Positions 9,090-57,660 of a DNA stretch of 64,000 bases are shown piece by piece. The stretch is from Tannerellaceae bacterium (GTDB taxonomy: Bacteria > Bacteroidota > Bacteroidia > Bacteroidales > Tannerellaceae). The DNA lies in NCBI GenBank assembly GCA_031257015.1, contig JAIRPK010000022.1:1-64000 (forward strand), in the 5' to 3' direction. The notes below the pieces were generated by a model that was not told where the DNA came from, ran no database searches, and saw only the letters and a list, made by a program, of their open reading frames with translations. A program made the position numbers and the translations under genes. How positions within the stretch are numbered: position 1 is the stretch's first letter; the number at the start of each line of letters is the position of its first letter.

Positions 9090-9518
9090 GTGACATATTT
9101 TCCGGCAGATTGAACATGTATTCCTGGCGATTGAACATGTATTTCTCACAATTGTACATGTATTCCCGGCAATTGAACATGTATTCCTGGCAATACAACA
9201 TGTATTCCTGCGGATTGAACATGTTTTCTTACGTATTGAACATGTTTTTTGAGCAATTTTACATGTTTTGTACTCACGAAATCATGCGAAATCGCGGGAA
9301 AAACATGTTGTATCGCCAGAAAAACATGTACAATCGCCAAGAAAACATGTACAATTGTGAGAAATACATGTACAATCGCCAGAAAAACATGTACAATCAT
9401 GAGGAAAACATGTACAATCGCCAGAAATACATGTACAATCACGAGAAAAACATGTTCAATTGCCGAAAAAACATGTTCAATCACAAGGAAAACATGTTTT
9501 TCTGTCCTGCATACATGA
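9090..9518. repeat. Array A: 21-bp tandem repeat with ACATGT core, inverted at its midpoint
   Basis: The palindromic hexamer ACATGT sits at 9114 and then every 21 bases exactly to 9492: 19 phased positions, 18 perfect. The exception, TCATGC at 9282, marks a change of orientation. Left units carry TTGA before the core and ATTCCTGGC after it; right units are the reverse complement (GAAAA before, ACAATCGCC after). Phase continues into decayed copies: ACATAT at 9093, ACATGA at 9513, GCATGT at 9597, ACATGA at 9639 and 9660, and AAATGT at 9723. The two arms could fold into a long imperfect hairpin. It lies between the M49 gene and fur. Function unknown. Confidence 0.95.
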
Positions 9519-9936
9519 CTGACAGCTGCGGAAACAGGCGTTCCGGCCGGGAGAAAATAAACACTCGCCCGTTGAAGAAATTGCATTGCCGCAGAAGCAT
9601 GTTTTCCGACCGGGGCACAGGGTTAGACTGTTTGCATGACATGATAAATTGGCAGCGCGACATGATTGCATGTCAAAAAGACCTGATGATTTGTCACGAC
9701 AGGAAGATGTCGCAGCCTCAAAAAATGTTAACAGTCCGGAAAAATAAGTTAATGTGTTCATGCGGAGGTTTTAACCTGCCGGAAAACAATAAAAAATCAC
9801 GATTCGCAAGTCTTAAATCCCAGACGGCGGCGTCTAATAATCAACGCTTTATGACAAATAACGCCGCAAAAAACGGAATCCGCTCATCCCACGTTTTTTT
9901 CTCTCATTTCCTGTTGAAAAGTTCATCTTTTATTGT

Positions 9937-9944
9937 TACCTTTG
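9937..9944 (+). promoter_or_regulatory. promoter for fur
   Basis: TACCTTTG matches TAnnTTTG, with TTG at 9914-9916 twenty bases upstream as a -33 element. It lies 20 bases before the ATG at 9965 and fixes that start for the Fur protein. Confidence 0.6.
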
Positions 9945-9964
9945 GGACATTAGTCTATAAGTCA

Positions 9965-10426
9965 ATGCAAGAAGATCATGAATTGCCGAAAAAGATAGAG
10001 AACCTCTATTTGGATTATCTAAAGGCAAATAACTTAAAAAGAACAAAAGAGCGGGATTTTATCTTAATAAGCCTTTGCAGAGAGAAAGGGCACACAGATG
10101 CCGAGGCTCTTTACAAAAAACTTTGCGATAATCCGCAATTTCGTGTCAGCAAGTCGGCTATTTACGATGCGTTGAACCTTTTCGTCAGCGCAGGAATAGC
10201 CAGCAAACATGTTAATAACAAAACGGCTGAATACGAACTGGCAGAAAACTCGAAAAAACATGTGCACCTTAAATGTATTCATTGCGGAAAAATCATAGAG
10301 GCGAGGGTTAACCCTACAATGTTTGAAAACAGCATAAATGCTGCAAAATATAACTTTTCGCCGTGCTATTTCTCCTTCTTTTCTTATGGAATATGCCATG
10401 AATGTGAAACAAAACAGAAAAAATAG
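9965..10426 (+). CDS. fur: Fur-family metal-responsive transcriptional regulator
   Basis: 153-residue DNA-binding repressor that senses Fe(II) or another metal. An N-terminal winged helix (about 15-85, including RTKERDFILISLCREKGH and SKSAIYDALNLF) is followed by a C-terminal dimer/metal domain with Cys pairs CIHCGK and CHEC, the usual structural zinc site. The reading frame stays open upstream to 9011 through array A, but the promoter at 9937-9944 and normal family length place the start at 9965. purA begins 27 bases after the stop. The pairing with purA is known in Bacteroidales. Fur, Zur and PerR cannot be separated with certainty. Confidence 0.9.
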   Translation: MQEDHELPKKIENLYLDYLKANNLKRTKERDFILISLCREKGHTDAEALYKKLCDNPQFRVSKSAIYDALNLFVSAGIASKHVNNKTAEYELAENSKKHVHLKCIHCGKIIEARVNPTMFENSINAAKYNFSPCYFSFFSYGICHECETKQKK

Positions 10427-10453
10427 ATTAAAATCAGATATATTATGCTGTAT

Positions 10454-11743
10454 ATGAAAGTTGATGTGATATTAGGTCTCCAGTGGGGGGACGAAGGGAA
10501 AGGGAAAATCGTCGATGTTCTCGCTCCCGATTATGATGCGGTAGCGCGTTTCCAGGGCGGCCCCAATGCGGGGCATACTTTGGAGATTGAAGACCGGAAA
10601 TATGTCCTGAGGTCGATTCCTTCCGGCATCTTGCAGGAGGATACGTACAACATTATCGGCAGCGGCGTCGTTATCGACCCGCTATTGTTCAAGGAAGAAG
10701 CCGAAGCGTTGATGAACGACTGTACGGATATGACAAACCGGTTGTTCATCTCAAAGAAGGCGCACTTGATTCTCCCGACGCATCGTCTTCTCGACGCGGC
10801 TTACGAATCGGCCAAAAAGACCGGACGCATCGGAACAACCGGAAAGGGCATAGGCCCGGCCTACGGAGATAAAATCGGACGGTGCGGCCTGCGAGTCGGC
10901 GATACGCTGGAACCGGATTTCCACGAGAGATACGAGGCGGCAAAGCTTCGCCACATCGAAATCCTTAAATCTCTCGGACAGGATTGCGACATCGCCGAAC
11001 TGGAAAAGAAATGGATGGAGGGAATCGCTTATCTCCAGAAGTTCAGCCTTGTGGACAGCGAGTATGTCATTAACGACTATCTGGCAGACTGTTACTCGGT
11101 GCTCGCGGAAGGTGCGCAGGGGACGATGCTTGATGTGGATTTCGGATCTTACCCCTTCGTTACCTCGTCGAACACGATGTGCGGCGGATGTTGCACGGGT
11201 TTGGGCATCTCGCCGCGGAGCATCGGTGAGGTTTACGGCGTTTTCAAGGCCTATTGCACGAGAGTGGGCGCCGGTCCTTTTCCTACGGAGCTTCACGACG
11301 AGACGGGCGAGACGCTGTGCCGGCTGGGGAATGAATATGGTTCGGTGACGGGGCGCAAACGCCGTTGCGGATGGATCGACCTCGTTGCGCTTCGTTACGC
11401 CATCATGATTAATGGGGTAACTTGCCTTGTTATGACCAAGAGCGACGTTTTGGATACGTTCGACACAATAAAGGTTTGTGTGGCTTACAAGAGAGGAGAC
11501 GAAACTTTTGAGCGTTTGCCTTACAGTATTGACGAAAGTTATGAACCGGTTTATACAGAGATTCCCGGTTGGAAGACGGATATGTCAGGAATGGAGAAAG
11601 AGGATGAATTTCCAGAGGAATTTAACGCTTATCTCGACTTTTTGGAGAATGAATTGGAGACGCCCATATATATTGTCTCTGTCGGGCCGAACCGCGCACA
11701 GACTATTCGGCGATATGATGAAGAGGAGGATGAATGTTCCTGA
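10454..11743 (+). CDS. purA: adenylosuccinate synthetase
   Basis: Joins IMP and aspartate using GTP to make adenylosuccinate, the first AMP-specific step of purine synthesis. The 429-residue frame starts MKVDVILGLQWGDEGKGK, containing the P-loop-like GDEGKGK; QGGPNAGHTLE, GTTGKGIGPAY, AEGAQGTMLDVDFG and VTGRKRRCGWID are all conserved blocks. An ATG three codons earlier (10445) is possible, but family members usually begin at MKVD. It sits directly after fur and is probably co-transcribed. The acidic end (EEEDE) is unremarkable. Confidence 0.97.
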   Translation: MKVDVILGLQWGDEGKGKIVDVLAPDYDAVARFQGGPNAGHTLEIEDRKYVLRSIPSGILQEDTYNIIGSGVVIDPLLFKEEAEALMNDCTDMTNRLFISKKAHLILPTHRLLDAAYESAKKTGRIGTTGKGIGPAYGDKIGRCGLRVGDTLEPDFHERYEAAKLRHIEILKSLGQDCDIAELEKKWMEGIAYLQKFSLVDSEYVINDYLADCYSVLAEGAQGTMLDVDFGSYPFVTSSNTMCGGCCTGLGISPRSIGEVYGVFKAYCTRVGAGPFPTELHDETGETLCRLGNEYGSVTGRKRRCGWIDLVALRYAIMINGVTCLVMTKSDVLDTFDTIKVCVAYKRGDETFERLPYSIDESYEPVYTEIPGWKTDMSGMEKEDEFPEEFNAYLDFLENELETPIYIVSVGPNRAQTIRRYDEEEDECS

Positions 11744-11803
11744 AAATTTTCGGCAAGCTTTTTGTTAGTTTGCATAACATAAACTAAAAAAAAGAACGAA
11801 CTT

Positions 11804-12484
11804 ATGTATATGCAATGGATTTTATTTATTGGAATAGCCCTCATCAGTTGGCTGGTTTCCTCCAACTTGAAGAGGAAGTTTGAGAAGTACTCCAGAATAC
11901 CTCTCCCAAGTGGTTTGACCGGACGGGATGTTGCCGAGCGGATGCTACACGAGAACGGGATATACGATGTCAAGGTGATTTCCACTCCGGGCCGTTTGAC
12001 TGACCATTATAATCCGACGGACAAGACGGTGAACCTGAGTGAGGATGTTTATTTAAGTAATAGCGTTGCCGCGGCGGCTGTAGCGGCTCATGAATGTGGG
12101 CACGCAGTGCAACATGCTGTTGCGTATGGGCCGTTGACAATGCGCTCGGCGCTTGTGCCGGTGGTAAATTTCTCGTCAAGCATAATGACGTGGATATTGC
12201 TGGGAGGAATATTGTTGCTGAACACCTTTCCTTATCTTTTGCTTATTGGCATTGCGCTGTTTGCCATGACGACGCTGTTCGCTTTTGTGACGCTGCCGGT
12301 AGAGATCGATGCAAGTCATCGGGCAGTCGTGTGGTTGAACCGTTCGGGCATAACGAATGTCAGTACGCACGATAAGGCTGTGGATGCTCTCCGTTCGGCA
12401 GCTTATACATATGTGGTTGCAGCCCTCGGCTCGCTGGCTACATTAATATATTACATAATGATTTATTTAGGACGAAGAGATTAA
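11804..12484 (+). CDS. YugP-type membrane zinc metallopeptidase
   Basis: 226 residues with an N-terminal membrane segment (about 3-20), the zinc motif HECGH near residue 96 (AAHECGHAVQHA), and hydrophobic helices at roughly 125-165 and 195-220. This is the neutral zinc metallopeptidase family of Bacillus subtilis YugP, whose substrates are not established. It lies 60 bases after purA with a weak possible promoter between, and a long-loop hairpin follows. Confidence 0.88.
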   Translation: MYMQWILFIGIALISWLVSSNLKRKFEKYSRIPLPSGLTGRDVAERMLHENGIYDVKVISTPGRLTDHYNPTDKTVNLSEDVYLSNSVAAAAVAAHECGHAVQHAVAYGPLTMRSALVPVVNFSSSIMTWILLGGILLLNTFPYLLLIGIALFAMTTLFAFVTLPVEIDASHRAVVWLNRSGITNVSTHDKAVDALRSAAYTYVVAALGSLATLIYYIMIYLGRRD

Positions 12485-12506
12485 AATCAATTTATAAGTT
12501 TGAATT

Positions 12507-12565
12507 GGGAGCCGGGAGATTTTTCGTTGTATGAAAAGTATTTTCTTTATGGCTCCCATTTTTTT
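12507..12565 (+). terminator. hairpin after the YugP-type gene
   Basis: GGGAGCC (12507-12513) pairs with GGCTCCC (12551-12557) and is followed by a run of seven Ts. The loop is 37 bases, longer than usual. The next gene starts 17 bases later, so it could also act as an attenuator for that gene. Confidence 0.5.
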
Positions 12566-12582
12566 ATGCCCGGTTATGCAAT

Positions 12583-13329
12583 ATGAAAGAGTGTCTGGAT
12601 GAGTATGTAGCCTTAATCAATACACCGGAATTTGTTAGCCATGATCCTGTACAGTTTCCTAAACGATATATAAAGAAACAAGATATTGAAATCGCTGCTT
12701 TTGTAACGGCGATTATCAGTTGGGGGCAGCGCAAGACGATTCTTCGTGATGCCGAGCGGGTATTACAAAAAATGGGCGACAGTCCATATGATTATGTTAT
12801 GAATGGCGAATATGAGGGATTAGGTTCTGCGAATGTTCACCGCACGTTTTTTGAGACTGATTTGGCCTATATGCTGCGCGGATTCAGAGGAATTTATGAT
12901 GAGTTCGACAGTGTGGAGGATTTTCTTGCATGTAAAACCGTGGGGACGGAGGCAGATACGGCTTGGGCGGTGATTGAAACACTTCGCTCCGAGGCTGCCC
13001 GTGTTAATGGAAGGGATAACAGTAAATGTTTCCCGGCGAATCTTGAAAAATCTGCCTCAAAGCGTTATCATCTGGCGCTTAGATGGCTTGTCCGAAATGA
13101 TAATATTGTCGATCTTGGCATTTGGACATTTCTTAAACCATTTCAACTTTACATTCCATTGGATGTTCATGTCGGCAACACTGCACGACGTCTCGGACTG
13201 CTGACGCGCAAGGCGAATGACCGGAAATCAGTGGAAGAACTGACGGGTATTCTCCGACAATACTGTCCGGAAGACCCTGTAAAGTATGATTTTGCGCTGT
13301 TTGGAATAGGCGTGAACGGGAAGGAATGA
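12583..13329 (+). CDS. TIGR02757 family protein
   Basis: 248-residue soluble protein of the TIGR02757 family, found mainly in Bacteroidota and of unknown function. The pattern AAFVTAIISWGQRKTILRDAERV near residue 38, then LDVHVGNTARRLGLL (about 197-211) and DPVKYDFALFGIGVNG at the end, resembles helix-hairpin-helix glycosylase-like folds, but I see no proven catalytic motif. No signal peptide. Probably transcribed with or just downstream of the YugP-type gene. Confidence 0.8.
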   Translation: MKECLDEYVALINTPEFVSHDPVQFPKRYIKKQDIEIAAFVTAIISWGQRKTILRDAERVLQKMGDSPYDYVMNGEYEGLGSANVHRTFFETDLAYMLRGFRGIYDEFDSVEDFLACKTVGTEADTAWAVIETLRSEAARVNGRDNSKCFPANLEKSASKRYHLALRWLVRNDNIVDLGIWTFLKPFQLYIPLDVHVGNTARRLGLLTRKANDRKSVEELTGILRQYCPEDPVKYDFALFGIGVNGKE

Positions 13330-13513
13330 GCTGCGATGAATTAATTGAGAATATCCCCTGATGTTTTGCTTCCGGCTTGGTGGTTGTTGCCGAAAAAGAT
13401 ATTATGTATATAAATGTTAAGAAGGGAGACGGAGGTATTGTGTTTTATGCCGGAGGATAGGTGTCGAGGAGGAAGATGTTATAGTTGTTGGCTTGTAAAT
13501 CAATATGTTTTAG

Positions 13514-13521
13514 TATATTTG
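13514..13521 (+). promoter_or_regulatory. -7 promoter box for the Tat-exported oxidoreductase
   Basis: TATATTTG matches TAnnTTTG, 47 bases before the ATG at 13569. The gap 13330-13568 holds no other feature that I can support. Confidence 0.45.
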
Positions 13522-13568
13522 CTGAGTTTCGAATATATAATCATAAACAAATAATAAGTTTAAGAAAA

Positions 13569-14927
13569 ATGAAAAGACGAGATTTTTTAACAAACACTGC
13601 ACTCATTGGCGCAGGATTGCCGCTGGGAATGGCGCCGGCCTTAAATTCATGCAGTGGAGCATCTCAAACCACAGCTGCCTCTGCTAAAACTTATACTCCC
13701 GAAGAACTTGGAATGTACTCATTCGTCGATATAGCCCCCGATGGCAAGCCGCTAAAGGCGGCGCTCGTCGGTAATGGCGATCGCGGCACCGGTGCAGCCA
13801 CGCAATTTCTCAGCGCAGGACCGAACGTATCCATCATAGCCCTTGCAGACATTTTTGCCGACAGGCAGGCCAATTGCCGAAAAGTCTTGAAAGAGAAGTT
13901 TAATAATGAAGTGCCTGATGCGAATTGTTTTCTTGGCTTCGACGCATACAAGAAAGTACTTGATATGCCTGAAATTGACGTTGTGCTGCTTTGTACGCCG
14001 ACGCATTTCCGTCCGGAGCATTTCAAGGCGGCTGTTGATGCAGGCAAGCATGTTTTTATGGAAAAACCCTGCGCGGTTGACCCAACCGGAATACGCACAG
14101 TTATTGCAGCGGCCAAGGCGGCTACCTCAAAAGGCCTGACAGTCGTCACCGGCAACCAGCGTCGCCATTCCAAAGCATATTGGGAAGCATACGTGCAAGT
14201 GAGAAATGGCGCTATCGGCGAAATTGTCTCCGGCTCGGCTCATTGGGATCAGGGAGCATGGTGGAATAAGAAGAAACGCCCGGAATGGAGCGATATGGAA
14301 TACTGTATCCGCAACTGGTTCAATATCAAATGGCTTAGTGGAGACCATATCCTTGACCAGGCGATCCATAACATTGACGTAGTAACATGGTTCATGGGGA
14401 TGAGACCAATTAGCGCCGCCGGATTCGGAGGACGTGCTCAACGGCTGACGGGAGACATATTCGACTTTTTCAGCGTGGACTATTATTACGAGAATAACCG
14501 CAAGATGTTGACTACTGCACGCCAAATAGACGGATGTGAAGGAAACGTCTCCGAACAGGTCTATGGCTCCAAAGGAATGTTTACAACCAAGAACGGTGTA
14601 CACCTGGAGGACTATAACGGAAATACCATCTGGGCATACGATTATAAGGCTAATCCAGAAAAGGGACATTACGAGCAGGAACATATTCACCTGGTCGAAT
14701 CTATTCGACTGGACAAGAAAATCAATCAAGCCGAGGACCTTGCCTATTCCACATTAATAGCAATACTCGGTCGCGAAGCCGCATATACCGGCAACATGAT
14801 TACGTGGGATGAGATAATGAGTTCATCATTACGATATGGACCCGAAGCATATTCGCTCGGCCCCATCCCGGATTATAAAGAAGGCGTAGCGCCTGTTCCA
14901 GGCAAGGCGCCGGCAGATCCTATGTAA
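13569..14927 (+). CDS. Gfo/Idh/MocA family oxidoreductase with Tat signal
   Basis: The 452-residue protein starts MKRRDFLTNTALIGAG, a twin-arginine signal, followed by LNSC with Cys28 as a possible lipidation site; it may be a Tat-exported lipoprotein. The Rossmann fold begins near KAALVGNGDRGTGAATQFL, and the family motif EKPCAVDP (typical EKP) near residue 163 marks the nicotinamide pocket. Exported members in Bacteroidota commonly act on sugars or polyols and can carry a tightly bound NAD; the substrate here is unknown. Upstream in-frame codons from 13485 precede the likely promoter and are excluded. Single-gene unit closed by a strong terminator. Confidence 0.9.
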   Translation: MKRRDFLTNTALIGAGLPLGMAPALNSCSGASQTTAASAKTYTPEELGMYSFVDIAPDGKPLKAALVGNGDRGTGAATQFLSAGPNVSIIALADIFADRQANCRKVLKEKFNNEVPDANCFLGFDAYKKVLDMPEIDVVLLCTPTHFRPEHFKAAVDAGKHVFMEKPCAVDPTGIRTVIAAAKAATSKGLTVVTGNQRRHSKAYWEAYVQVRNGAIGEIVSGSAHWDQGAWWNKKKRPEWSDMEYCIRNWFNIKWLSGDHILDQAIHNIDVVTWFMGMRPISAAGFGGRAQRLTGDIFDFFSVDYYYENNRKMLTTARQIDGCEGNVSEQVYGSKGMFTTKNGVHLEDYNGNTIWAYDYKANPEKGHYEQEHIHLVESIRLDKKINQAEDLAYSTLIAILGREAAYTGNMITWDEIMSSSLRYGPEAYSLGPIPDYKEGVAPVPGKAPADPM

Positions 14928-14972
14928 ACATATTTATTTTCATTATTATAAATTTGTTTAGTTTAATATTGG

Positions 14973-15006
14973 GTGCGTACTCGTTTAGGCGGGTACGCAC
15001 TTTTTT
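14973..15006 (+). terminator. strong terminator after the Gfo/Idh/MocA gene
   Basis: GTGCGTACTCG (14973-14983) pairs with CGGGTACGCAC (14990-15000) with one G-T pair, followed by six Ts. The converging luxR-type gene ends at 15015. Confidence 0.85.
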
Positions 15007-15014
15007 GTGCAACA

Positions 15015-15668: not shown

Positions 15669-15695
15669 TTGATTCTTGAATAGTTAATAATGAAC

Positions 15696-15703: not shown

Positions 15704-15846
15704 CGTTTGGCTCCTGATTTAAAATACCATGTGTACGGTATTTCAATCACGCCCTCTTATGAGGCGGCGACTTCGCAGGAAGGCTTCCAGTCCGTTTGTT
15801 TCAGCATCCGTGTCTTGTCATTTTCAAATGGTCTTTCATCATTAAT

Positions 15847-16060
15847 GTTAGTGGGATGTCATCACTAGCGTTAGTGGGATGTCGTCACTAATGTTAGTGA
15901 GATGTCGTCACTAGCGTTAGTGGGATGTCGTCACTAATGTTAGTGAGATGTCGTCACTAGCGTTAGTGGGATGTCATCACTAGCGTTAGTGGGATGTCGT
16001 CACTAATGTTAGTGGGATGTCATCACTAGTGTTAGTGGGGTGTCGTCACCAGTGTTAGTG
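15847..16060. repeat. Array B: 23-bp tandem repeat with TTAGTG/CACTAA dyads
   Basis: GTTAGTG recurs at 15847 and every 23 bases exactly to 16054, giving nine full units and a partial tenth; a decayed half unit (TCATCATTAAT) precedes it. Each unit contains TTAGTG and CACTA(A/G) as inverted arms with a nine-base spacer; adjacent units also form the near-perfect palindrome CACTAATGTTAGTG. Variation is concentrated at a few positions (GGG/GAG, CAT/CGT, AGC/AAT). It lies between the tRNA-CAU terminator and the promoter of the LuxR-type gene. Period 23 is not a multiple of three, so coding is ruled out. Confidence 0.95.
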
Positions 16061-16089
16061 GCGCTCGGAAGCATATGTGGATGTCTCGT

Positions 16090-16128: not shown

Positions 16129-16136
16129 GTTTGGAG

Positions 16137-16210
16137 TAGCGAGAGGGGGACTTGAACCCCCGACCTTCGGATTATGAATCCGACGCTCTAACCAGCTGAG
16201 CTATCTCGCC
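16137..16210 (-). tRNA. tRNA with CAU anticodon (elongator Met or lysidine-modified Ile)
   Basis: 74 bases fold as a cloverleaf: acceptor GGCGAGA with TCTCGCT (terminal G-U pair), D-arm GCTCAGCTGGTTAGAGC, anticodon stem TCGGA/TCCGA with loop TTCATAA giving CAU, variable loop AGGTC, T-arm GGGGG/CCCCC around TTCAAGT. CCA is not encoded. The GG start excludes a typical initiator (C1-A72 mismatch). Elongator Met versus Ile2 cannot be fixed by eye. Confidence 0.95.
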
Positions 16211-16228
16211 ATCTTTTCAATACGGGGG

Positions 16229-18218: not shown

Positions 18219-18359
18219 AAAGACACTGTTATCAGCGAAGCCTGAAAATGAGTAACAATCTGTTCAGAATTATCTGATAACTATTAACTCTATATCTTGT
18301 CCCCACACACTCAAACGAATTATCAATGAATCAACGAATAAAATTGGAACCCTTCGCGA

Positions 18360-18712
18360 CATTCTCCGAGAATCACGCGAGATTCTCCGAGAATCAAACG
18401 AGACTCTCTGAGAATCAAACGAGACTCTCTGAGAATCAAACGGGACTCTCCGAGAATCACGCGGGACTCTCGGAGAATCACGCGAGACTCTCCGAGAATC
18501 AAACGAGACTCTCCGAGAATCAAACGGGACTCTCGGAGAATCACGCGAGACTCTCCGAGAATCACCATGATATTCTCCGAGAATCAAACGAGACTCTCGG
18601 AGAGTCACCACTATATTCTCCGAGAATCACGCGAGACTCTCTGAGAATCACGCGACATTCTCTGAGAATCAAACGAGACTCTCCGAGAATCACGCGAGAC
18701 TCTCGGAGACAA
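18360..18712. repeat. Array C: 21-bp tandem repeat with GATTCTCNGAGAATC-type palindromes
   Basis: Seventeen CTCNGAG cores run from 18364 to 18702; 14 of 16 intervals are 21 bases and two are 22. The full palindrome is about 15 bp. Perfect versions include GATTCTCCGAGAATC at 18381 and GACTCTCGGAGAGTC at 18592. The spacer is six bases, mostly AAACGA, ACGCGA, AAACGG or ACGCGG. The centre base N is C, G or T. It lies between the long LptF/LptG gene and ribBA. Array D at 27 kb is the same family in reverse orientation. Heptapeptide-repeat frames through it (such as 18326-18766) are artefacts of a period divisible by three. Confidence 0.95.
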
Positions 18713-18772
18713 AAATTAGTAACAGACTTATTTTTTAATCTAGCGGACAGCAATAAAGAAGCATAAACTCTC

Positions 18773-27154: not shown

Positions 27155-27166
27155 ATATTGTTATTG

Positions 27167-27728
27167 ACAGCTCCGAGCATCAAATGAGATGCTCCGAGCG
27201 TCTCGTTTGACACTCCGAGTGTCTTGTTTGACACTCCGAGTGTCTCGTTTGACACTCCGAGCGTCTCGTTTGACACTCCGAGTGTTTCGTTTGATGCTCG
27301 GAGCGTCTCGCGTGACACTCGGAGCGTCTCGTTTGATGCTCGGAGCGTCTCGCGTGACACTTGGAGCGTCTCGTTTGACACTTGGAGCGTCTCGTTTGAC
27401 ACTCGGAGTGTCTCGTTTGACACTCGGAGCGTCTCGCTTGATGCTCGGCGCGTCTCGTTTGATGCTTGGCGCGTCTCGTTTGATGCTTGGAGAATCACCG
27501 TTGATACTCGGAGAATCACGCTTGATACTCTGAGAGTCTCGCGTGATTCTCGGAGAGTCACCGTTGATTCTCTGAGAGTGTCTGGTTGATACTCGGAGAA
27601 TCACCGTTGATTCTCGGAGAGTCTCGCGTGATACTCTGAGAATCACCGTTGATTCTCGGAGAGTCTCGCGTGACACTCGGAGAATCACCGTTGACTCTCT
27701 GAGAGTGTCGCGTGATACTCGGAGAATC
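27167..27728. repeat. Array D: 21-bp tandem repeat, reverse-oriented relative of array C
   Basis: Twenty-seven cores of CTCNGAG type run from 27171 to 27718; 25 of 26 intervals are exactly 21 bases, one is 22. Cores drift along the array: CTCCGAG in the first six, CTCGGAG or CTTGGAG in the middle, CTCGGCG/CTTGGCG at 27444-27465, then CTCGGAG and CTCTGAG. Palindromes include GACACTCCGAGTGTC at 27209-27223. Spacers TCGTTT and TCGCGT are the reverse complements of array C spacers AAACGA and ACGCGA. It fills the gap between two converging genes. No coding function is supported. Confidence 0.95.
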
Positions 27729-27846
27729 ACGCTTCAATCCTTAAGAATGTTTTGAGACCTTCGGAAAATGTTGCAATATCTTCGGAACTAAAAGCAAAAA
27801 ACTCGCAAGACGCTTGTCCGCGAGTTTTGCATACGGCAATGGATAT

Positions 27847-38662: not shown

Positions 38663-39262
38663 CCAGTATGAGGGAAATGCTCCCGAAAATTTCTGGAGGT
38701 TTTCCCCGCGAAGGAAATGCTTCAAAAAAAAATATTGAGATTTTCCCCCTTGAGGGAAAGTGTGCTGAAAATTTCTAGAGGCTTTCCCCGCGAAGGAAAT
38801 GCTTCAAAAAAAAATATTTAGATTTTCCCCCTTGATGGAAAGTGTGCTGAAAATTTCTGGAGGCTTTCCCCGCGAAGGGAATGCTTCAAAAAAAAATTAT
38901 TTAGTTTTTCCCCCTTGAGGGAAAGTGTGCTGAAAATTTCTGGAGGTTTTCCCCGCGAAGGGAATGCTTCAAAAAAACTTCATTTAGATTTTCCCCCTTG
39001 AGGGAAAGTGTGCTGAAAATTTCTGGGAGCTTTCCCCGCGAAGGGAATGCTTCAAAAAAAAATATTGAGTTTTTCCCCCTTGAGGGAAAGTGTGCTGAAA
39101 ATTTCTGGAGGCTTTCCCCGCGAAGGGAATGTGTCAAAAAAAAAATATTTAGTTTTTCCCCCTTGAGGGAAATGCACCTGAAAATTTCGGGAAGCGTTCC
39201 CCCATGGGGGAAAGGCTCAATATTTTTTCAGGAGGGTTTCCACCTTTGGGGAAAGTGTCAGG
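38663..39262. repeat. Array E: 82-83-bp composite repeat, two alternating hairpins 41-42 bp apart
   Basis: Fourteen C-run hairpin cores are spaced 41 or 42 bases (C-runs start at 38704, 38745, 38786, 38827, 38868, 38910, 38951, 38993, 39034, 39075, 39116, 39158, 39199 and 39240). Two kinds alternate: TTCCC-CGCGAA-GGGAA and TTTCCC-CCTTGA-GGGAAA, each with a six-base loop. They are linked by A-run segments (CTTCAAAAAAAAATATT) or by GTGTGCTGAAAATTTCTGG. The last two copies are decayed. It lies between frr and the 3' end of the HhH/barrel gene. The period is close to four helical turns or two 21-bp steps. Confidence 0.93.
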
Positions 39263-46532: not shown

Positions 46533-46859
46533 TCTTTCTAATCGCGTGCCGGCTTCAATTTTTACAGTTTTTCCTTGAAGCAAAAGGTTCGCGTTTTTTT
46601 TATGTCTTATTTTTCGCCATATTCTCTTTTATCTATAAAAATGCTGGCTCGGAGCTTGGGATCTCGTCAAACAATATTTACAGTCGGTGTCCCTAAATAT
46701 AATTTTAGAATTATAACCAATCCATGGCATCACAAATATTAAGACGCGGAATAAGCGATGCGAATTTTTGATATAAATAATAAAGTTATTGCCAGCCAGG
46801 CCATTAATTTTTCATTCAACAGTTTACCGATTGATTTTCTGAAATAACTCTACGGCACT
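46533..46859. other. gene-free stretch between lepA and array F
   Basis: AT-rich, no supported ORF and no strong hairpin. It forms the 3' flank of lepA. Confidence 0.4.
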
Positions 46860-46945
46860 TTCCACACCGATGCGCGAACTTCCGTCACCGGTGCGCGAAC
46901 TTCCGTCACCGGTGCGCAGACTTTCCGCACCGGTGCGGAAATCTT
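46860..46945. repeat. Array F: short 21-bp tandem repeat with CACCGGTG core
   Basis: Four cores lie 21 bases apart: CACCGATG at 46865, then CACCGGTG at 46886, 46907 and 46928. The last extends to a perfect 20-bp palindrome TTTCCGCACCGGTGCGGAAA (46922-46941). The others are near-palindromes with TTCCG before the core and CGCGAA or CGCAGA after it. GC-rich within AT-rich surroundings. It lies between the converging lepA and queF genes. This is the smallest array. Confidence 0.9.
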
Positions 46946-47385
46946 CGGAACACACGACAATACCCCCGGTGATAATTCTAATTTTAATGTTCCAGGATTG
47001 CTGAGAAATGTTCGGCATTTCTTTTTCAGATTCGCTTGCGATTCTCCTTTTCCGTGAAATTCCTGCGCCAAGAAAAAGACTGAATTTTACTGATGATTGC
47101 CAAATACTCAGGAATAAATTATGATTTATGTTTATGCCTAATTGACAGTTCCGTTTTAAAATACATGAATCAGCTCCAGGTTGCAAACAAGACTTCTTGC
47201 AAACAGAGGCTATGGCTATACATTTTTATTGAAAGATGTTTACAGAAATATGCGATTCTCCCTTAATATTCAATCTGGCTGCTACGGTTTGTAACCTTAA
47301 TTTTGACGGTAAACGATTTTTGGAAGAGTAATAGTTTCACGAAATCACGTTGCATCTCCAAGCGCGATTGTCATGTTTGACACAC
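46946..47385. other. gene-free stretch between array F and the queF terminator
   Basis: No supported ORF; a 120-codon minus-strand frame (46824-47186) merely reads through array F. No RNA gene recognised. Confidence 0.4.
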
Positions 47386-51173: not shown

Positions 51174-51223
51174 TTTATTCCTACTTTAAATTATTCTTTC
51201 TTTTCTTATTCTTTCTCTTCGTC

Positions 51224-52642
51224 CTAATCATCTTTGAAAATCCAGTCCATAATGCTACCGCCCTTTTCCTTGGGTTCCTTGGGTTCCTTGTTTTTTTTGC
51301 GATTGCGTCCCCACTTTTCTACTTTTACCTTTTTCCCATCTTTTGTTTCATTGTCGTCACTAGTAGCAGTAGTTTGCTTCTCAATTGCAACCTTTTCAAT
51401 ATCTGGAAAAAGGTCTCTCCCGCTCGGCGGCGGTGCTGGCATGGCCGAACAATTCATGTAGTTCTTATCTCCATGCAGTAACAAGCCGATGGATACGTAA
51501 TCCGGGGCTATGTTGGGGGATTGTCTCTTGAGGATGATATTCCTCCGATAAGATGAGACTTTACGGACCTCCACTTTCAAACAATCCTCAATGAATTTAT
51601 CCAGCTGCGGAAGAGACGCGGCTTTGCCAGTGATGAAGATTCCCGACTTCAGGAATGTCCCCAAATTGTCTGCCTCGCGGCGATTCTCTGCTCTGACTAT
51701 TTCTCTTAAGCAATGTTCCGCATTTGCGATAATCTCATATTGTCGCGCCATTATTACTTCATAAAAAGATTTCGGGTCTATTGAGCGTAACTCTGACTTG
51801 TCAGGAGTGTTCACGCTGATGAAAGAGCTTTTATTCTCGTCAGCAATAGCGCAGCCGTGCTCAAGTTTGAGTTTCTCGGCCTCGACTTCGGATAACCCGA
51901 ACCGTTCAGCGATATCCCTGGTTATTAGATTGGCACCCAGCGGGATAGTTCTAAGCCCCAGCAACCGCCCTTTCTTGTAAACGCTTACCGATGTCACTCC
52001 ACTTCCAAAATCAATCAGGGCGCACCCCAATTCTTTGTCATTTTCGCTCAAAACCGCATCCGACAGAGCCAAGGGTGTGACAATTATGCCTGCCAATCCG
52101 TTCTTCAGACCAGCAGCCTTGACTGTCTCCAACACATCTCTACGCAAGGTATGTCGCGCAAGTATGAGCGGATATTTAGCCTCAATCATTGAGCAAACGC
52201 TTCCGACCGGATTAGGATCCAATTGTCCATTCAAATAGCAGGCCGGCTCCAAAATATCCAATACATCTTCCTCCGTTGGCAATTGGTGCTCAATTTCGTT
52301 CTTTAACTCGTCCATTAAAGCGTCAGTCACTTTTCCGTGAGATTCCAATGAGTGAGAGATACTTATTTCTTCTGATCGCACTGACTGCCCGCCAATGCCT
52401 ATAAACACTTTTCCGATGCGTGAGCCTGGAATCTTATTCTCCAACTTCCTGATTAGCGATTTCAGCCTTTCAGACGTTTCATTCACGTTCCTAATACATC
52501 CACGCCGGATACATCCTTCCGAATCCTCAGTCTCGTAAGACAAGACGGTGAATCCGTCACCTGTTTGCTCACGCCGACCTACGATTCCCGTTAAGATGGA
52601 ACTTCCTAATTGTATTGCTGCTATAAACTCCGTGTATGGCAT
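51224..52642 (-). CDS. ftsA: cell division protein FtsA
   Basis: 472-residue actin-like protein that ties FtsZ to the membrane. AIQLGSSILTGIVGRRE near the start is the phosphate-1 loop; ALIDFGSGVTSVSVYKKG near 213 is phosphate-2; the 1C insertion follows the usual order. The C-terminus has a charged linker (about 410-460) ending GGSIMDWIFKDD, an amphipathic membrane-targeting helix as expected. Between ftsQ and ftsZ. Confidence 0.95.
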   Translation of the reverse strand: MPYTEFIAAIQLGSSILTGIVGRREQTGDGFTVLSYETEDSEGCIRRGCIRNVNETSERLKSLIRKLENKIPGSRIGKVFIGIGGQSVRSEEISISHSLESHGKVTDALMDELKNEIEHQLPTEEDVLDILEPACYLNGQLDPNPVGSVCSMIEAKYPLILARHTLRRDVLETVKAAGLKNGLAGIIVTPLALSDAVLSENDKELGCALIDFGSGVTSVSVYKKGRLLGLRTIPLGANLITRDIAERFGLSEVEAEKLKLEHGCAIADENKSSFISVNTPDKSELRSIDPKSFYEVIMARQYEIIANAEHCLREIVRAENRREADNLGTFLKSGIFITGKAASLPQLDKFIEDCLKVEVRKVSSYRRNIILKRQSPNIAPDYVSIGLLLHGDKNYMNCSAMPAPPPSGRDLFPDIEKVAIEKQTTATSDDNETKDGKKVKVEKWGRNRKKNKEPKEPKEKGGSIMDWIFKDD

Positions 52643-52648
52643 AAATTC

Positions 52649-53392
52649 CTATTTTTTCGTACAAACAATCTGATTCTTATATTTCAAGTTAATGATCCCA
52701 TATTTATTCCATCCTATTTTCGGAATCGCCTGCTCGTAAAAGAGGCGCAAGTTGGACAGTTTTTCTTTAAAATTATCAAACGACCCCAGCAATATCCGAT
52801 GATCCCCTACTCGCGGAATAAGTTCTACCTCTTTGTCGGGACGGATATAGATCTGTTCGATTTGATTATTCCAAAATTCATTTTCCAGCAAAAATAATGA
52901 AAATTCATACAAGTTGGTTCGCGCATAATCTTTTTCAATATTGCCGCTTGCAACAGGCGTATATGCGGCGTATTTGCCGCTTGCAGGCATGATCTCGCCC
53001 TTTCTGTCAACATAATAATCGGACGAACCGGTAATGATTCGTAACACTGGTGTTTTCTCCATCACTTTTATTTTAATCATATCCGATGGAGTTTTATATA
53101 CATCAACGTCGGAAACTAATCCGTTACGCCTGATTTCCAGCTTGATTTTATTCGTATTTATCTCGTTCATCGGTTTCCCGTTCGGGTGAAGACCGGCATT
53201 CTTCAGTGCTAGGACGATTTCGGACTCGGTCAGGAATGTTTTGCCGTTTTCGCTCTTAATCGTGACGGACAGTCCGCGGCATTGATCGTCCTGCTTCGTA
53301 TCCTTGAAGCGCACGGCAACAATAATGATATATATCATCAGTAATAGCGTTAGAACCGCTGCGAACAGGCGAATGGTGCGGAGGCGCTTCAT
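52649..53392 (-). CDS. ftsQ: cell division protein FtsQ/DivIB-like
   Basis: 247 residues: a short basic cytoplasmic start, one membrane helix (about 9-28, LFAAVLTLLLMIYIIIVAV) and a periplasmic POTRA/FtsQ domain (GLSVTIKSENGKTFLTESEIVLALKN, then MIKIKVMEKTPVLRI). The stop is six bases before ftsA, and its ATG overlaps the murG-murC stop by four bases (ATGA). Sequence is weakly conserved as usual; position and topology support it. Confidence 0.88.
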   Translation of the reverse strand: MKRLRTIRLFAAVLTLLLMIYIIIVAVRFKDTKQDDQCRGLSVTIKSENGKTFLTESEIVLALKNAGLHPNGKPMNEINTNKIKLEIRRNGLVSDVDVYKTPSDMIKIKVMEKTPVLRIITGSSDYYVDRKGEIMPASGKYAAYTPVASGNIEKDYARTNLYEFSLFLLENEFWNNQIEQIYIRPDKEVELIPRVGDHRILLGSFDNFKEKLSNLRLFYEQAIPKIGWNKYGIINLKYKNQIVCTKK

Positions 53393-55842
53393 CTCGGTCT
53401 GGTTAAAAGGATTTCCTTTACCGGCTTGACAAGACGGTCTATATCTCCGGCGCCAGCCATCAGGACAACATCGTAATCAGCTTTTTTCATCACGGCTACA
53501 AGTTCATCTTTCGTGCATAACGTTTTCCTCGGAGCTGTTACTCTGTCGAATATAATTTGAGATGTTATGCCTGGAATAGCTTCTTCACGAGCCGGATAGA
53601 TGTCCAAAAGAATCAGTTCGTCGGCCAATGAAAGAGCCTCGGCGAAATCCGCTGCAAAATCGCGTGTCCGCGAATAGAGATGAGGTTGAAAAACAACGGT
53701 AAGTCTTCTTCCTGCATACAATTCTTTTACAGACCGTATGCTCTCCCTTATTTCCGACGGATGATGGGCATAATCGTCAATCAGTGCAATATCCTTGTTA
53801 TTTATATGTATATCAAACCGTCGCCCGGAGCCGCCAAAAGTAGCCATAGCGTTCTTAACCTCCGCTGCACTAACTCCATTCAAGGTCGCAATAGCAATAG
53901 CAGCTACGGCATTTTCAATATTTATCCTCACCGGAACGCCGAGTTTAATATCATCAATGCGGAAGTCGGGAGCTATGAAATCAAAATGTATTTCTCCGTT
54001 ACTGATACAAATATTCCCGGCATGAAAATCACCATCATCGGTTGAGTATGTATAAAGCTTAACGCCACGCTTTAGTCGAGGATTAATGTTTATTCCCTTT
54101 TTCATCACCAGCGTCCCACCCGGAACGACAAGCGAACTGAAATGGGCGAAACTCTCGCGATATGCGTCGCCAGTACCATAAATATCAAGATGGTCTTCGT
54201 CAGCCGAGGTTATAACTGCCATATATGGAGTAAGGCAATGGAAAGAACGGTCATATTCGTCTGCCTCCACGACTGTAAACTCGCTCTTTGCGGATAGAAG
54301 CAGGTTTGAATTATAATTTTTCAGAATCCCCCCAAGGAACGCCGTACAATCAACGGTTGATTGTTTCAGCAGATGGGCGACCATGGACGAAGTAGTAGTC
54401 TTACCATGTGTCCCGGCGATACATAGCGCTTTCGACGTAGCTGTAATACGCCCTAGCGCCTCGCTCCGCTTTATGATTTCAAAGCCATTTTCCCTGAACC
54501 AGCATAGTTCGCGATGCGAATCTGGTACCGCCGGTGTATATATAATTAATGTATGAACCGGAGAACGAAATTTTTCCGGAATAAGAGCAACGCTATCTTC
54601 ATAATGAATCTCCGCCCCCTCCTGCCGAATACTTTCAGTGAGCGGCGAGGCCGTCCGATCGTAGCCGCCAACGCTTTTTCCTTTCGACAAATAATAACGT
54701 ACCAGGGCGCTCATTCCGATTCCACCTATCCCGATGAAATAAACGGACTTCTTGATTATGTTATCAATTTCGTTGACAATACGCCCAGCGCTATCGGAAC
54801 AACCCAGGGCCAACATGCGTTCACTCATTTTCTCAAGTATATCATTATTTTTAATCATATCCACCGCCTTGACCAATTCTCCGTACAGTTTATTTTCATG
54901 AATAACGACTGCACCACCGTTTAATCCTACTGCCAGCGCATTTTTAGTCTGGTGATTGGCAGTGACATTAGGTGAAGGAACCAGGATGGCCGGCTTGCCC
55001 AAGAGCGTCAATTCGGAAATCGTCCCGGCTCCCGCACGGGAAATAACCAAGTCCGCCGCCGCATAAGCATAGTCCATGCGCGTAATAAATGCCTCAACCC
55101 AAATTGACGACGTATTGCTATACACGGCAACTTTTTCTCTCATGGATTCAATATAGCGACTTCCGGCCTGCCAGATAAGCTGGACGTCCGCCCCAATTAT
55201 GTTCGGGAGAATATCGGCGACGGCATAATTTATTTCTCTTGCTCCCAGGCTACCGCCGATTATAAGCAACGTTCTGCGTGCAGGCGACAAGCCGAAATAG
55301 GAAAAAGCCTCATTTCTGTTTACATCAAAATTCTCAATGTCGTGTCTTACCGGATTGCCGGTAAGGACGATGTTCTTCGCTGGGAAATATCGTTCCAAAT
55401 CCTTGTATGCCACGCAAATTTTTGCAGCCTTATTAGCGAAAAGGCGGTTTGTAATGCCTGGAAACGAGTTTTGCTCCTGAATCAGGAAGGGAATCCCCAA
55501 AGCCGACGCTGCCCACATCACCGGCGAGCTGGCATAGCCTCCAGTTCCTACAACTATATCCGGCTTAAATTCAAGGATAATTTCCTTTGCCCGGCGTCTG
55601 CTTGTAATAAAAAAAGTCTTAATAGCCTTCAAGGCTTTCCATGGATTGGTTCGGCTAATGCCGCTAACAGGAATCCCGACAATGTGATAGCCCGCATCGG
55701 GAACCATCTTCATTTCCATCCTTCCCTCTGCTCCGACAAAGAGGATCTCCACTCCAGGATAACGCTCCGTCAGTTTTCCGGCAATTGCAATGGCAGGGAA
55801 AATATGCCCGCCTGTTCCACCTCCGCTAATGATTACTTTCAT
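53389..55842 (-). CDS. MurG-MurC fusion: lipid II synthase plus UDP-MurNAc:L-alanine ligase
   Basis: One 817-codon frame without a stop carries two complete enzymes. Residues 1 to about 363 are MurG (GGGTGGHIFPAIAIA at 7-21, GTGGYASSPVMWAA near 99, IGGSLGAREIN near 195, SRAGAGTISELTLLGKPAI near 268), which adds GlcNAc to lipid I at the membrane. About 364-817 are MurC (FIGIGGIGMSALVRYYLSKG at 369-388, P-loop GTHGKTTTS near 477, DDYAHHPSEIR), a cytoplasmic ligase adding L-Ala to UDP-MurNAc. The join (NEIDNIIKKSVYF, about 54745-54760) has no Met or stop. In most relatives these are two adjacent genes. A base-calling error could mimic the fusion, but no frame disturbance is visible on either side. 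Confidence 0.93.
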   Translation of the reverse strand: MKVIISGGGTGGHIFPAIAIAGKLTERYPGVEILFVGAEGRMEMKMVPDAGYHIVGIPVSGISRTNPWKALKAIKTFFITSRRRAKEIILEFKPDIVVGTGGYASSPVMWAASALGIPFLIQEQNSFPGITNRLFANKAAKICVAYKDLERYFPAKNIVLTGNPVRHDIENFDVNRNEAFSYFGLSPARRTLLIIGGSLGAREINYAVADILPNIIGADVQLIWQAGSRYIESMREKVAVYSNTSSIWVEAFITRMDYAYAAADLVISRAGAGTISELTLLGKPAILVPSPNVTANHQTKNALAVGLNGGAVVIHENKLYGELVKAVDMIKNNDILEKMSERMLALGCSDSAGRIVNEIDNIIKKSVYFIGIGGIGMSALVRYYLSKGKSVGGYDRTASPLTESIRQEGAEIHYEDSVALIPEKFRSPVHTLIIYTPAVPDSHRELCWFRENGFEIIKRSEALGRITATSKALCIAGTHGKTTTSSMVAHLLKQSTVDCTAFLGGILKNYNSNLLLSAKSEFTVVEADEYDRSFHCLTPYMAVITSADEDHLDIYGTGDAYRESFAHFSSLVVPGGTLVMKKGININPRLKRGVKLYTYSTDDGDFHAGNICISNGEIHFDFIAPDFRIDDIKLGVPVRINIENAVAAIAIATLNGVSAAEVKNAMATFGGSGRRFDIHINNKDIALIDDYAHHPSEIRESIRSVKELYAGRRLTVVFQPHLYSRTRDFAADFAEALSLADELILLDIYPAREEAIPGITSQIIFDRVTAPRKTLCTKDELVAVMKKADYDVVLMAGAGDIDRLVKPVKEILLTRPR

Positions 55843-55859
55843 GATGGCATATATATAAT

Positions 55860-57113
55860 TTATTTATCTTTTAACGCTGCCAAAGGCGTATCTTCGGAGC
55901 TGCCGGCTTCTGCTTCCAGAACTTCATCATCTCCTTCTTCCACCTCCTCTTCAACATCTTCTTCATTCCCTATGCCTGCTCCGAAACGGCTTACACTCAG
56001 TATAATACCGATATATACGCAGGTGATAACCGTTGATGTCCCTCCGCGACTGATTAACGGTAGCGGCTGGCCGGCTATGGGAAATAGATCGACAACAACT
56101 GCCATGTTGAGAAAGGCTTGCATACAAATCAATAAACTGCATCCCAGGACAAGATACTTTGGAAATAGTTTTTCGCATTTACGGGCAATCACTCCGGCTC
56201 GGATTAATATAATAATATATAGAATCATCACAATTATACCTCCGATTACTCCCATCTCCTCAACTATTATCGCGAATATATAATCTGCATATGCCAGAGG
56301 AAGAGTTTCTCGCTGTTGCCCCAGTCCGGGGAATTTTCCCAGACCTCCGTTAGCAATTGCAATCTTGGAATATACAGTTTGTCTGTTATCATCATCTATA
56401 ACAAACGATTTTACATCCTGCTTAGGCTCCGGCTCAACATACATCGTCAACCGGTGTTTTATTTTCGCCAAAATAGCATGATCGTTCAAGTCCTTCTGAG
56501 GCAATGCAAATATAACAGCCACTCCCAGCGCCAGCAACAACATAAGAACGAATGTTAATGAAAGCATCCGCTTCCACGACACTTGACCGATAAACATAAA
56601 CAGAACCATAAAGACGAGAATAATCCCCCCGGTCGAAAAATTTTCCAACATAATAAGCCCGACAACAGGCAGAACTCCCAAAATAACAAACCAAAATCTT
56701 TGGGCTTCCGTAAATTTTTTCCGTTTGCTAAGACAAAAGGCCATAAATATGACACAGGCGAGCTTGGCTACTTCTGATGGCTGGAAACTTATTCCAAACA
56801 GTCTGTACCAGCGATATGAACCGTTTATCTCTACTCCCCCAACAAGCGTCAGGACTAGAAGAAGGATGGATATAGGCAGCAACAGCGCTCCTATCGACAG
56901 CCAGCGGCATGGGATATGATGAATAATGACGGCCGCAACCATTCCTATAAATATCATTTGCTCATGACGGATTATAAATGACCAATAATTATCGGCCTTA
57001 TATGCCAGTACACTTGATGCACTAAACACTTCAATCGTCGAGACGATCGCTAAAAGCATGAATGTAATCCATATTGACCTGTCGCCTTTAAATATTCTAT
57101 TGACTAATTCCAT
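55860..57113 (-). CDS. ftsW: lipid II flippase/SEDS protein FtsW
   Basis: 417 residues of the SEDS family, with about ten membrane helices. Conserved pieces are WYRLFGISFQPSEVAKLACVIF, GGLGKFPGLGQQRETLPLAYADYIFAIIVEEMG and PLPLISRGGTSTV. SEDS proteins are septal glycan polymerases. The last 35 or so residues are strongly acidic (EEDVEEEVEEGDDEVLEAE), a cytoplasmic tail I do not recall from family members. Its upstream gap to murD, 646 bases, holds a promoter and array G. Confidence 0.93.
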   Translation of the reverse strand: MELVNRIFKGDRSIWITFMLLAIVSTIEVFSASSVLAYKADNYWSFIIRHEQMIFIGMVAAVIIHHIPCRWLSIGALLLPISILLLVLTLVGGVEINGSYRWYRLFGISFQPSEVAKLACVIFMAFCLSKRKKFTEAQRFWFVILGVLPVVGLIMLENFSTGGIILVFMVLFMFIGQVSWKRMLSLTFVLMLLLALGVAVIFALPQKDLNDHAILAKIKHRLTMYVEPEPKQDVKSFVIDDDNRQTVYSKIAIANGGLGKFPGLGQQRETLPLAYADYIFAIIVEEMGVIGGIIVMILYIIILIRAGVIARKCEKLFPKYLVLGCSLLICMQAFLNMAVVVDLFPIAGQPLPLISRGGTSTVITCVYIGIILSVSRFGAGIGNEEDVEEEVEEGDDEVLEAEAGSSEDTPLAALKDK

Positions 57114-57200
57114 TGTAAAACTTAACGTTTAGAGTTAGAAATTATGAATAATCCGCCTCTTTCCTTCAGGTTTCGGCCGGACATTACACCGTATCTTCTG

Positions 57201-57208
57201 CAAATTTA
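57201..57208 (-). promoter_or_regulatory. possible -7 promoter box for ftsW and downstream dcw genes
   Basis: The minus strand reads TAAATTTG, 87 bases before the ftsW start. It would restart transcription after array G. Confidence 0.4.
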
Positions 57209-57307
57209 ATGAATCTAATGAAGAGATTACAATTGTCTGTTTTATTTCAATCTTGACTTTCTTGTCGAAAACAAATATTATTTTCATTTGGATGTTTATT
57301 ATTTTTG

Positions 57308-57315
57308 TATATTTG
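57308..57315 (+). promoter_or_regulatory. plus-strand promoter pointing into array G
   Basis: TATATTTG with TTTG at 57287-57290, 17 bases upstream, makes one of the better two-part Bacteroidota promoter matches in the window. It faces array G and murD antisense to the dcw cluster. A 72-codon frame of heptapeptide repeats (57346-57564) follows, but I do not call it a gene. Confidence 0.45.
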
Positions 57316-57375
57316 TACAGTTTTAACAGTATATCAATAGTTTAAATGAACTTTATTTATAATAAAATAAATTAT

Positions 57376-57660
57376 ATGGGTCCTCGAATGAGTTGCATAG
57401 GTACTCAAATGATTCATACGGGCACTCGAACAAGCAGAACGGGTACTCAAATGAGTCGGAGGGGTACTCGAATGAATTGTACGGGTACTAAAATAAACCA
57501 GACGGGTACTCGAACAATTTATATGGGTACTCAAATAAATTGGACGAGTACTCGAATGAATTAAACGAGTACTAAAATGAATCGGATGAGTACCCGTTTA
57601 AATCGAACGAGTACTCGAATAAGTTAAATTAGTACTAATCCAAGCTCTTCTAATACTGGA
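57376..57660. repeat. Array G: 21-bp tandem repeat with GAGTACTC/GGGTACTC core, inside the dcw cluster
   Basis: Thirteen GTAC-type cores lie exactly 21 bases apart from 57380 to 57632 (first GTCC, third GCAC, the rest GTAC), with a decayed ATAC at 57653. Palindromes of 8-12 bp surround the core, such as CGAGTACTCG at 57545 and 57608 and ATTAGTACTAAT at 57628. The core shifts along the array from GGGTACTC to GAGTACTC. It separates murD from ftsW, genes that normally sit end to end. Confidence 0.95.

Follow-up and report, generated by a model that had tools for sequence, protein, structure and literature searches.

The closest described relatives of the repeats reported here are mobile elements of Porphyromonas gingivalis. 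According to the available text of the study describing it (PMC4596501), BrickBuilt is an intergenic 23-nt minisatellite of 1 to 22.8 units, carried together with a leader and a tail by an IS5-type miniature inverted-repeat transposable element (MITE); its 19 dispersed copies constitute 0.44% of the genome, the leader and tail are often truncated from the outside, and the flanks had promoter activity in Escherichia coli. The same text reports 22-nt tandem repeats in this species, as well as MITE464/PgRS, with 41-nt units and terminal inverted repeats (TIRs) almost identical to those of BrickBuilt. In this study, seven tandem-repeat arrays (A to G) were analyzed in a stretch of 64,000 nt from a Tannerellaceae bacterium (assembly GCA_031257015.1, contig JAIRPK010000022.1, positions 1 to 64,000), referred to below as the window, and they were compared with arrays located elsewhere in this genome and in related bacteria. 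A sequence-only reading of the window had proposed that the seven arrays share an architecture (a short palindrome repeated at near-fixed spacing) without sharing a sequence.

The arrays look like an extreme bloom of repeat-carrying mobile elements of the P. gingivalis type. As in that species, which belongs to the same order, units of about 22-23 or 41 nt are tandemly repeated in intergenic positions (8 of 139 arrays lie within a called open reading frame, ORF), the unit sizes of MITE464 and of the 22-nt repeats (41 and 22 nt) equal classes found here, and dispersed copies have common non-repeat flanks (in 5 of 35 sequence groups). The differences concern scale, the number of families (one 23-nt family with IS5-type TIRs in the case of BrickBuilt, 35 groups here), the lack of any detectable TIR and the rule of one palindrome per two helical turns, which was seen here and for which the P. 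gingivalis elements were compared by their published description only. The available texts of a review of prokaryotic MITEs (PMC10969869) and of a study of P. gingivalis repeats (PMC5771137) mention BrickBuilt and contain no such rule; in the open-access literature, as judged from search listings, there was no report of such a pattern, and the P. gingivalis elements were the only close kin. We propose, with a probability of about one half, that the arrays are the bodies of dispersed, non-autonomous, MITE-like elements, and that their grid of palindromes would be a platform for a dimeric protein.

Array periods and families across the genome

The window covers the initial 64 kb of a contig of 95 kb, and the assembly measures 3.12 Mb (73 contigs, 93% complete, 0 contamination). 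Arrays were detected with Tandem Repeats Finder (TRF), and clusters with fewer than 2.8 copies were omitted from all array counts (this genome, relatives, other genera and named loci). Density was determined in 780,902 bases of the genome, including the window, on contigs picked by number and length, three of which (C25, C47 and C33) were already known to carry CTCsGAG arrays. An additional 359 kb, selected for holding arrays, brought the material to 1.14 Mb and was excluded from the density figure.

In the 781-kb sample, 86 of 93 arrays had a period of 21-23, 41-43 or 83 bp, i.e. one per ~9 kb (21 bp, n = 38; 22 bp, n = 14; 23 bp, n = 9; 41 bp, n = 7; 42 bp, n = 6; 43 bp, n = 10; 83 bp, n = 2), and the remaining seven had a period of 9, 15, 16 or 20 bp. 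Seventy-nine of the 86 fall in the 717 kb outside the window, the other seven being its own. The expectation, raised from the window, that such arrays are numerous and confined to a narrow set of periods was borne out, since the periods correspond to two, four or eight helical turns and not to a broad spread. Array C used as a BLAST query gave 111 matches within this genome, which, together with the 86 of 93 arrays in these period classes, as against 7 of 37 at 21-22 bp around murD in named Bacteroidales (see below), excludes chance.

The 1.14 Mb contained 151 array clusters, and those with a period of at least 20 bp formed 35 groups in a single-linkage BLAST grouping (arrays of shorter period, 6 of 93 in the 781 kb and 8 of 151 in the 1.14 Mb, were omitted). 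Because the grouping is single-linkage, some groups chain different cores, and family numbers are not the same in the two groupings made. Twenty groups contain two to thirty arrays each, while three singletons have periods of 26, 63 and 108 bp. The period was mostly uniform within a group: 21 bp in 30/30 CTCsGAG arrays and in 24/24 arrays of the CACCGGTG group, 23 bp in 8/8 CACTAA arrays, 22 bp in 7/7 GACTGnnCAGTC arrays and 43 bp in 11/12 arrays of the CCACCTTGG group; mixed periods (21 and 42; 41 and 83; 20 and 41-42; 21, 22 and 66 bp) occurred in some smaller groups. Altogether, the arrays occupy 43.6 kb of the 1.14 Mb, a sample partly chosen for arrays. Contigs C2, C6, C13, C40, C42, C43, C44, C47 and C59 of this genome start or end within CACCGGTG arrays; as the assembly is broken inside these arrays, their true number and length are probably underestimated.

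Palindrome spacing and unit inversion

Dyad symmetry was assessed by seeking an axis in the column profile of each array and comparing it with 200 column permutations (both 83-bp arrays, array E being one of them, were excluded). It exceeded the null at p ≤ 0.05 in 55 of 85 arrays and at p ≤ 0.01 in 38, and thus most arrays are palindromic beyond the column-permutation expectation, as had been suspected from the window; arrays A, B, C and D were significant (p 0.005-0.035). Of 28 arrays with units of 41-43 bp, 16 showed two dyads separated by approximately half a period; at L241:9311, for example, two clear palindromes are separated by 20.5 bp. Most simply described, a palindrome recurs once in 20.5-23 bp, or roughly two turns of the helix, and in some families palindromes of two or more types alternate.

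Spacings between sites were counted within 110 bp, and the ten commonest values were taken per family. Neighbouring CACCGGTG sites lay exactly 21 bp apart in 117 of 118 cases. Among 104 ACATGT spacings, 66 were of 21 bp and 22 of 42 bp, with 20 and 22 bp absent from the ten commonest values, and among 311 CTCsGAG spacings, 186 were of 21 bp and 54 of 42 bp. In neighbouring ACATGT units the core was 90-97% identical and the spacer 53-66%. The proposal of a shared geometry without a shared sequence holds more strongly than it was first made, given the periods, the palindromy above the null and the same rule in sister species (see below).

The orientation of units was also found to switch. In all three ACATGT arrays, the spacer has one orientation in one part and the opposite orientation in the other, with a single main switch across a degenerate centre that leaves the phase intact; the parts comprise 9 vs 9, 9 vs 5 and 8 vs 10 units, with one odd unit added at the left end of the first. 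Array A (9093-9532; TRF to 9497, last site by eye), with ACATGT per 21 bp and ~20 units as seen by TRF and printing, is one of the three, and its switch lies between 9261 and 9303. Ten confident orientation changes between adjacent CTCsGAG units all occurred at exactly 21 bp, 101 neighbour pairs being too symmetric to score, and no confident orientation switch was seen in the CACCGGTG and GACTGnnCAGTC groups. A unit can invert with its phase intact because its core is a palindrome. Simple slippage leaves orientation unchanged; units would be inverted by a strand switch or a recombination event at the palindrome.

Inversion of this kind is what a serious rival would lead one to expect, namely that the arrays are neutral minisatellites, in which a chance palindrome was amplified by slippage and strand switching, the period was set by the replication/repair machinery or by the helix, and no function is involved. 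Strand switching explains flips at palindromes that keep the phase, and the model also agrees with the species-private sequences, with the lack of a partner protein among 729 called proteins and with a unit identity that is higher within than between arrays in two families (0.77 vs 0.71 and 0.89 vs 0.79). For ACATGT, however, the two identities are nearly equal (0.689 vs 0.674), and its conserved core, divergent spacer and near-exact spacing do not fit duplication alone, which would homogenise every position. Moreover, common flanks (described below) imply dispersal besides local growth. We consider neutral amplification, on balance, rather unlikely.

Dispersal of the families and their putative carrier elements

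Outside the repeats themselves, 39 of 41 cross-locus flank matches fell within a family, and 38 of these 39 were in the same outward orientation; the within-family matches involve 5 of the 35 groups, and none was seen in the others. The CACCGGTG arrays on contigs C7 and C36 have ~800 bp in common, with flanks that are 89% and 97% identical and end abruptly, and the right flank module of array F (46938-47121, plus strand) matches the flanks of CACCGGTG arrays on both contigs at 71-72%. Further flank alignments also stop abruptly, and three arrays end at ...GGGCGGGC. Flanks common to array copies point to dispersal, beyond local growth, and at the level of sequence comparison the families are shown to have dispersed to many sites of this genome. 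The earlier idea that simple duplication of one element does not account for the arrays is thus upheld between families; within the larger families arrays have been duplicated and dispersed with common flanks.

The comparison of insertions covers two junctions. The murD-ftsW gap of the division and cell wall (dcw) cluster (57114-57759, minus strand) holds array G (57378-57622) and measures 646 nt, whereas all 17 same-genus relatives have 3-25 nt there. Likewise, the lptG-ribBA gap (18219-18772), which holds array C (18363-18709), measures 554 nt, whereas 10 of the 11 relatives compared have -14 to 33 nt. The latter junction was counted where both genes were on the locus (11 relatives); five more relatives showed no ribBA there, and three lower or off-locus lptG matches (L170-L172) were omitted. 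A second array insertion at this junction, considered for the eleventh relative (G009), was rejected, as its 329-nt gap contains no array. At 70-74% MurD identity, the array-free murD-ftsW and lptG-ribBA junctions of the relatives are too diverged for a target-site duplication to be read. Among the ten first-listed named relatives by MurD, Tannerellaceae and Parabacteroides predominate (69-73% amino-acid identity).

If the arrays are the tandem-repeat bodies of MITE-like elements, families (an array, joined in the larger families by flank modules specific to the family) would have been copied to many intergenic sites, tight operons included, and the arrays would thereafter expand, contract and invert locally, unit by unit. 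The families would be united by geometry, i.e. a short palindrome per two helical turns (20.5-23 bp), while the 41-43-bp units (in many, not all, such arrays) and, presumably, the 83-bp units would correspond to two or four palindromes of alternating type. As the most likely reason, we infer that a dimeric DNA-binding protein would occupy each palindrome; with neighbouring sites facing the same side of the helix, dimers could line up and bind cooperatively. The element might benefit through mobilisation or protection of the array, and the host through local chromatin or insulation between transcription units.

Several results weigh against this reading. The dyad null was not beaten by 30 of 85 arrays, including array G (p 0.19) and all 12 tested members of the CACCGGTG group, in which a short palindrome and nearly identical units are perhaps the cause; for array F, p was 0.22, and the two CCGGAAG-type 42-bp arrays had no dyad in the permutation or the two-dyad test. 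Furthermore, 29 of 311 CTCsGAG spacings were of 22 bp, and two turns of B-DNA are not matched exactly by periods of 22-23 bp. With respect to mobility, neither a TIR nor a target-site duplication was present in the best CACCGGTG pair, and 12-mers of IS5-type TIRs (≤2 mismatches) occurred 11, 16 and 4 times within 500 bp of arrays, with ~14 expected by our own estimate, so that TIRs of this type were near the chance frequency. No Y1 transposase (PF01797) was found in this genome, whose assembly is 93% complete, with the control search positive in 5 of 14 genomes; the transposase search gave only one partial DDE_Tnp_1 match, and the copying enzyme was not found. Finally, 729 called proteins, representing about one third of the genome, were sorted into paralog groups, and no expanded DNA-binding family was seen among these; the two largest groups (nine members each) resemble ABC ATPases and TonB-type receptors, as named from sequence by inspection. 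Since no DNA-binding family has expanded alongside the array families in this third of the genome, an explanation of the repressor type is disfavoured.

All seven arrays of the window proved to be real, being found by TRF and confirmed by printing in register, with the periods of 21 bp (A, C, D, F and G) and 23 bp (B) that had been claimed. For array E (38669-39202), the claimed spacing of 41-42 bp is that of a half-unit, the full TRF period being 83 bp, with TTTCCCC/GGGGAAA palindromes seen by eye. The summed span of the arrays is ~2.4 kb, somewhat above the ~2 kb first given. Their cores are as had been described by eye, except that those of arrays C and D are not unrelated: array C (a CTCsGAG palindrome per 21 bp, 16.4 copies by TRF) and array D (27167-27734, left edge by eye; CTCsGAG per 21 bp, 26 copies; between convergent genes) both belong to the CTCsGAG family, and the array C query matches D. 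Array B (15839-16061) has a CACTAAnnnTTAGTG-type palindrome per 23 bp in 9.7 copies (TRF), and its family comprises 8 arrays in the 1.14 Mb and ~18 places across the whole genome. Array F (46857-46937; CACCGGTG per 21 bp, 3.9 copies) is short, yet it is a member of the 24-array single-linkage group, in which 16 of 24 arrays have the CACCGGTG core. Array G is degenerate, with GAGTACTC-like sites per 21 bp and a higher order of 42 and 84 bp. On the same contig beyond the window, at least two further arrays (C23:65961 and C23:72096; one 41-bp and one long CACCGGTG) are present in the stretch C23:64001-84000.

Gene context of the arrays

Within the window, arrays A, B, C, E and G lie between co-directional genes and arrays D and F between convergent ones, as first described, if gene calls and tRNAs are both counted; the context of array B counts the tRNA-Met at 16136-16210, and the gene after array A is called with its start inside the array. 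Genome-wide, the accompanying rule (an array always follows the 3' end of a gene and never separates divergent promoters) fails. Using a simple gene caller of our own and ARAGORN tRNAs (four arrays with a period of 26, 63, 66 or 108 bp were omitted), 139 arrays were classified as co-directional (63), divergent (25), convergent (22), at a sequence edge (21) or inside a called gene (8, some of the genes being weak), and thus 25 of the 110 placeable arrays lie between divergent genes. Nor was an enrichment 3' of genes supported: among gaps of at least 100 bp in the 781-kb sample, arrays were present in 34/143 co-directional, 19/51 divergent and 15/42 convergent ones. The 3'-of-gene rule is a peculiarity of this window.

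These contexts bear on the possibility that the arrays act as RNA-structure elements, similar to repetitive extragenic palindromic (REP) sequences and bacterial interspersed mosaic elements (BIMEs) or to 3'-untranslated-region hairpins, ending or stabilising transcripts. Palindromes could indeed fold as hairpins, and 63 co-directional and 22 convergent locations among 139 suit such a role; the 25 divergent ones do not. Selection for RNA hairpins was examined and rejected, as compensation between mirror pairs had the wrong sign (z -3.9 in 56 arrays; off-mirror control, z -2.7). Of 30 arrays, 26 were informative for mismatches on the sense strand, and A.C outnumbered G.U in 21 of them. The sense RNA folded more weakly than the antisense RNA in 46 of 60 arrays, largely as in array-free co-directional gaps (107 of 167), the excess of the arrays being marginal (p 0.035); because array-free gaps show most of the same bias, it was discarded as evidence. 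Rfam gave nothing in the window except two tRNAs, and hairpins would need no near-exact helical spacing. A function at the RNA level is therefore improbable. According to the available text of PMC3733652, REP elements are palindromes of 20-40 bp that carry GTAG or CGTC tags, lie mostly downstream of genes and are linked to REP-associated tyrosine transposases (RAYTs). The arrays resemble REPs and BIMEs in being numerous extragenic palindromes of several families per genome, some of them species-specific (PMC3733652), and differ in forming long tandem arrays in all gene contexts, with no Y1 transposase found. A REP/BIME system with RAYT was rejected on the latter ground, together with the divergent locations and the missing mirror-pair compensation.

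Two other candidates were set aside. TAnnTTTG motifs in the array flanks pointed outward in 57 cases and inward in 20, a bias that probably stems from ordinary promoters of the genes beyond the array and not from promoters directed into it. CRISPR was rejected because the period is 21-23 bp and the spacers are related, not unique.

The sopC centromere of the F plasmid, one plasmid locus with its own ParB, is built of 43-bp units in tandem, and every unit contains a palindromic site for a protein. Tandem palindromic sites at 21-23 or 43 bp look alike in such centromeres, in replication iterons and in the arrays described here, which could accordingly be sites for segregation or replication proteins. 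These systems are known to use one site family, whereas the arrays here occupy many loci, fall into dozens of groups and number about one per 9 kb in the 781-kb sample. A centromere- or iteron-like role is highly improbable. No ParB or Rep was seen in Pfam scans that covered 18 proteins of the window, mostly encoded next to arrays.

A coding origin, in which 21 bp would stand for seven codons of a seven-residue protein repeat, can practically be dismissed. Frames do run open through several 21-bp arrays, and the few arrays inside called ORFs would fit as well, but periods of 22, 23, 41 and 43 bp break the frame, array C has a 1-bp phase slip before 18577, and 32 of 32 two-turn-class arrays in relatives do not overlap a called ORF. 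Open frames through 21-bp arrays span 9011-10426 (plus strand), 18326-18766 (plus strand) and 27161-27730 (minus strand) and would be annotated as proteins; a three-member "family" of called proteins of ~79 aa resembles translated arrays.

Related genomes and biological meaning

Of 37 arrays found in 543 kb of sequence from eight genomes of the genus, 32 had a period of 21-23 or 40-42 bp; density ranged from 1 in 70 kb up to 7 in 52 kb, and 20 of the 32 passed the dyad test. Only two weak cross-species array matches were found among these relatives, indicating that the sequences are private. In 17 other same-genus genomes, the CTCsGAG array had one weak match and the CACCGGTG and CACTAA (array B) families had none. 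The use of periods varies by species: in G017 (L266-L269) all five arrays are at 40-41 bp, and in G001 (L262-L265) two arrays have 21-bp and five have 23-bp units. In 279 kb from four further genera of the family, one of six arrays fits the two-turn classes (three tiny contigs of genome G019, 2.9 kb, were omitted), and 80 named Bacteroidales loci (1.0 Mb), all of which surround murD and thus represent a gene-dense region, yielded 7 of 37 arrays at 21-22 bp. A metagenome-assembled genome, Tannerella sp. Nm470_bin147, carries a 12.8-copy 21-bp array with a GGAACGTTCC palindrome ~2.5 kb from murD (L021:3202-3469).

It is conceivable, although we regard it as rather doubtful, that one general process in the genus originates, phases and spreads palindromic arrays regardless of their sequence, with machinery that reads a dyad per two turns and not a motif, and with each species having its own private families.

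At a practical level, assemblies of array-rich genomes can break inside the arrays, and gene callers translate some arrays as proteins. Such a density of arrays, with dozens of unrelated sequences under one helical rule, looks unusual for a bacterium. If the two-turn rule reflects a protein, a common bacterial order would possess a factor so far unrecognised, either of the nucleoid or encoded by the elements; if it reflects a mutational process, it would be a way to build ordered repeats that also inverts their units.

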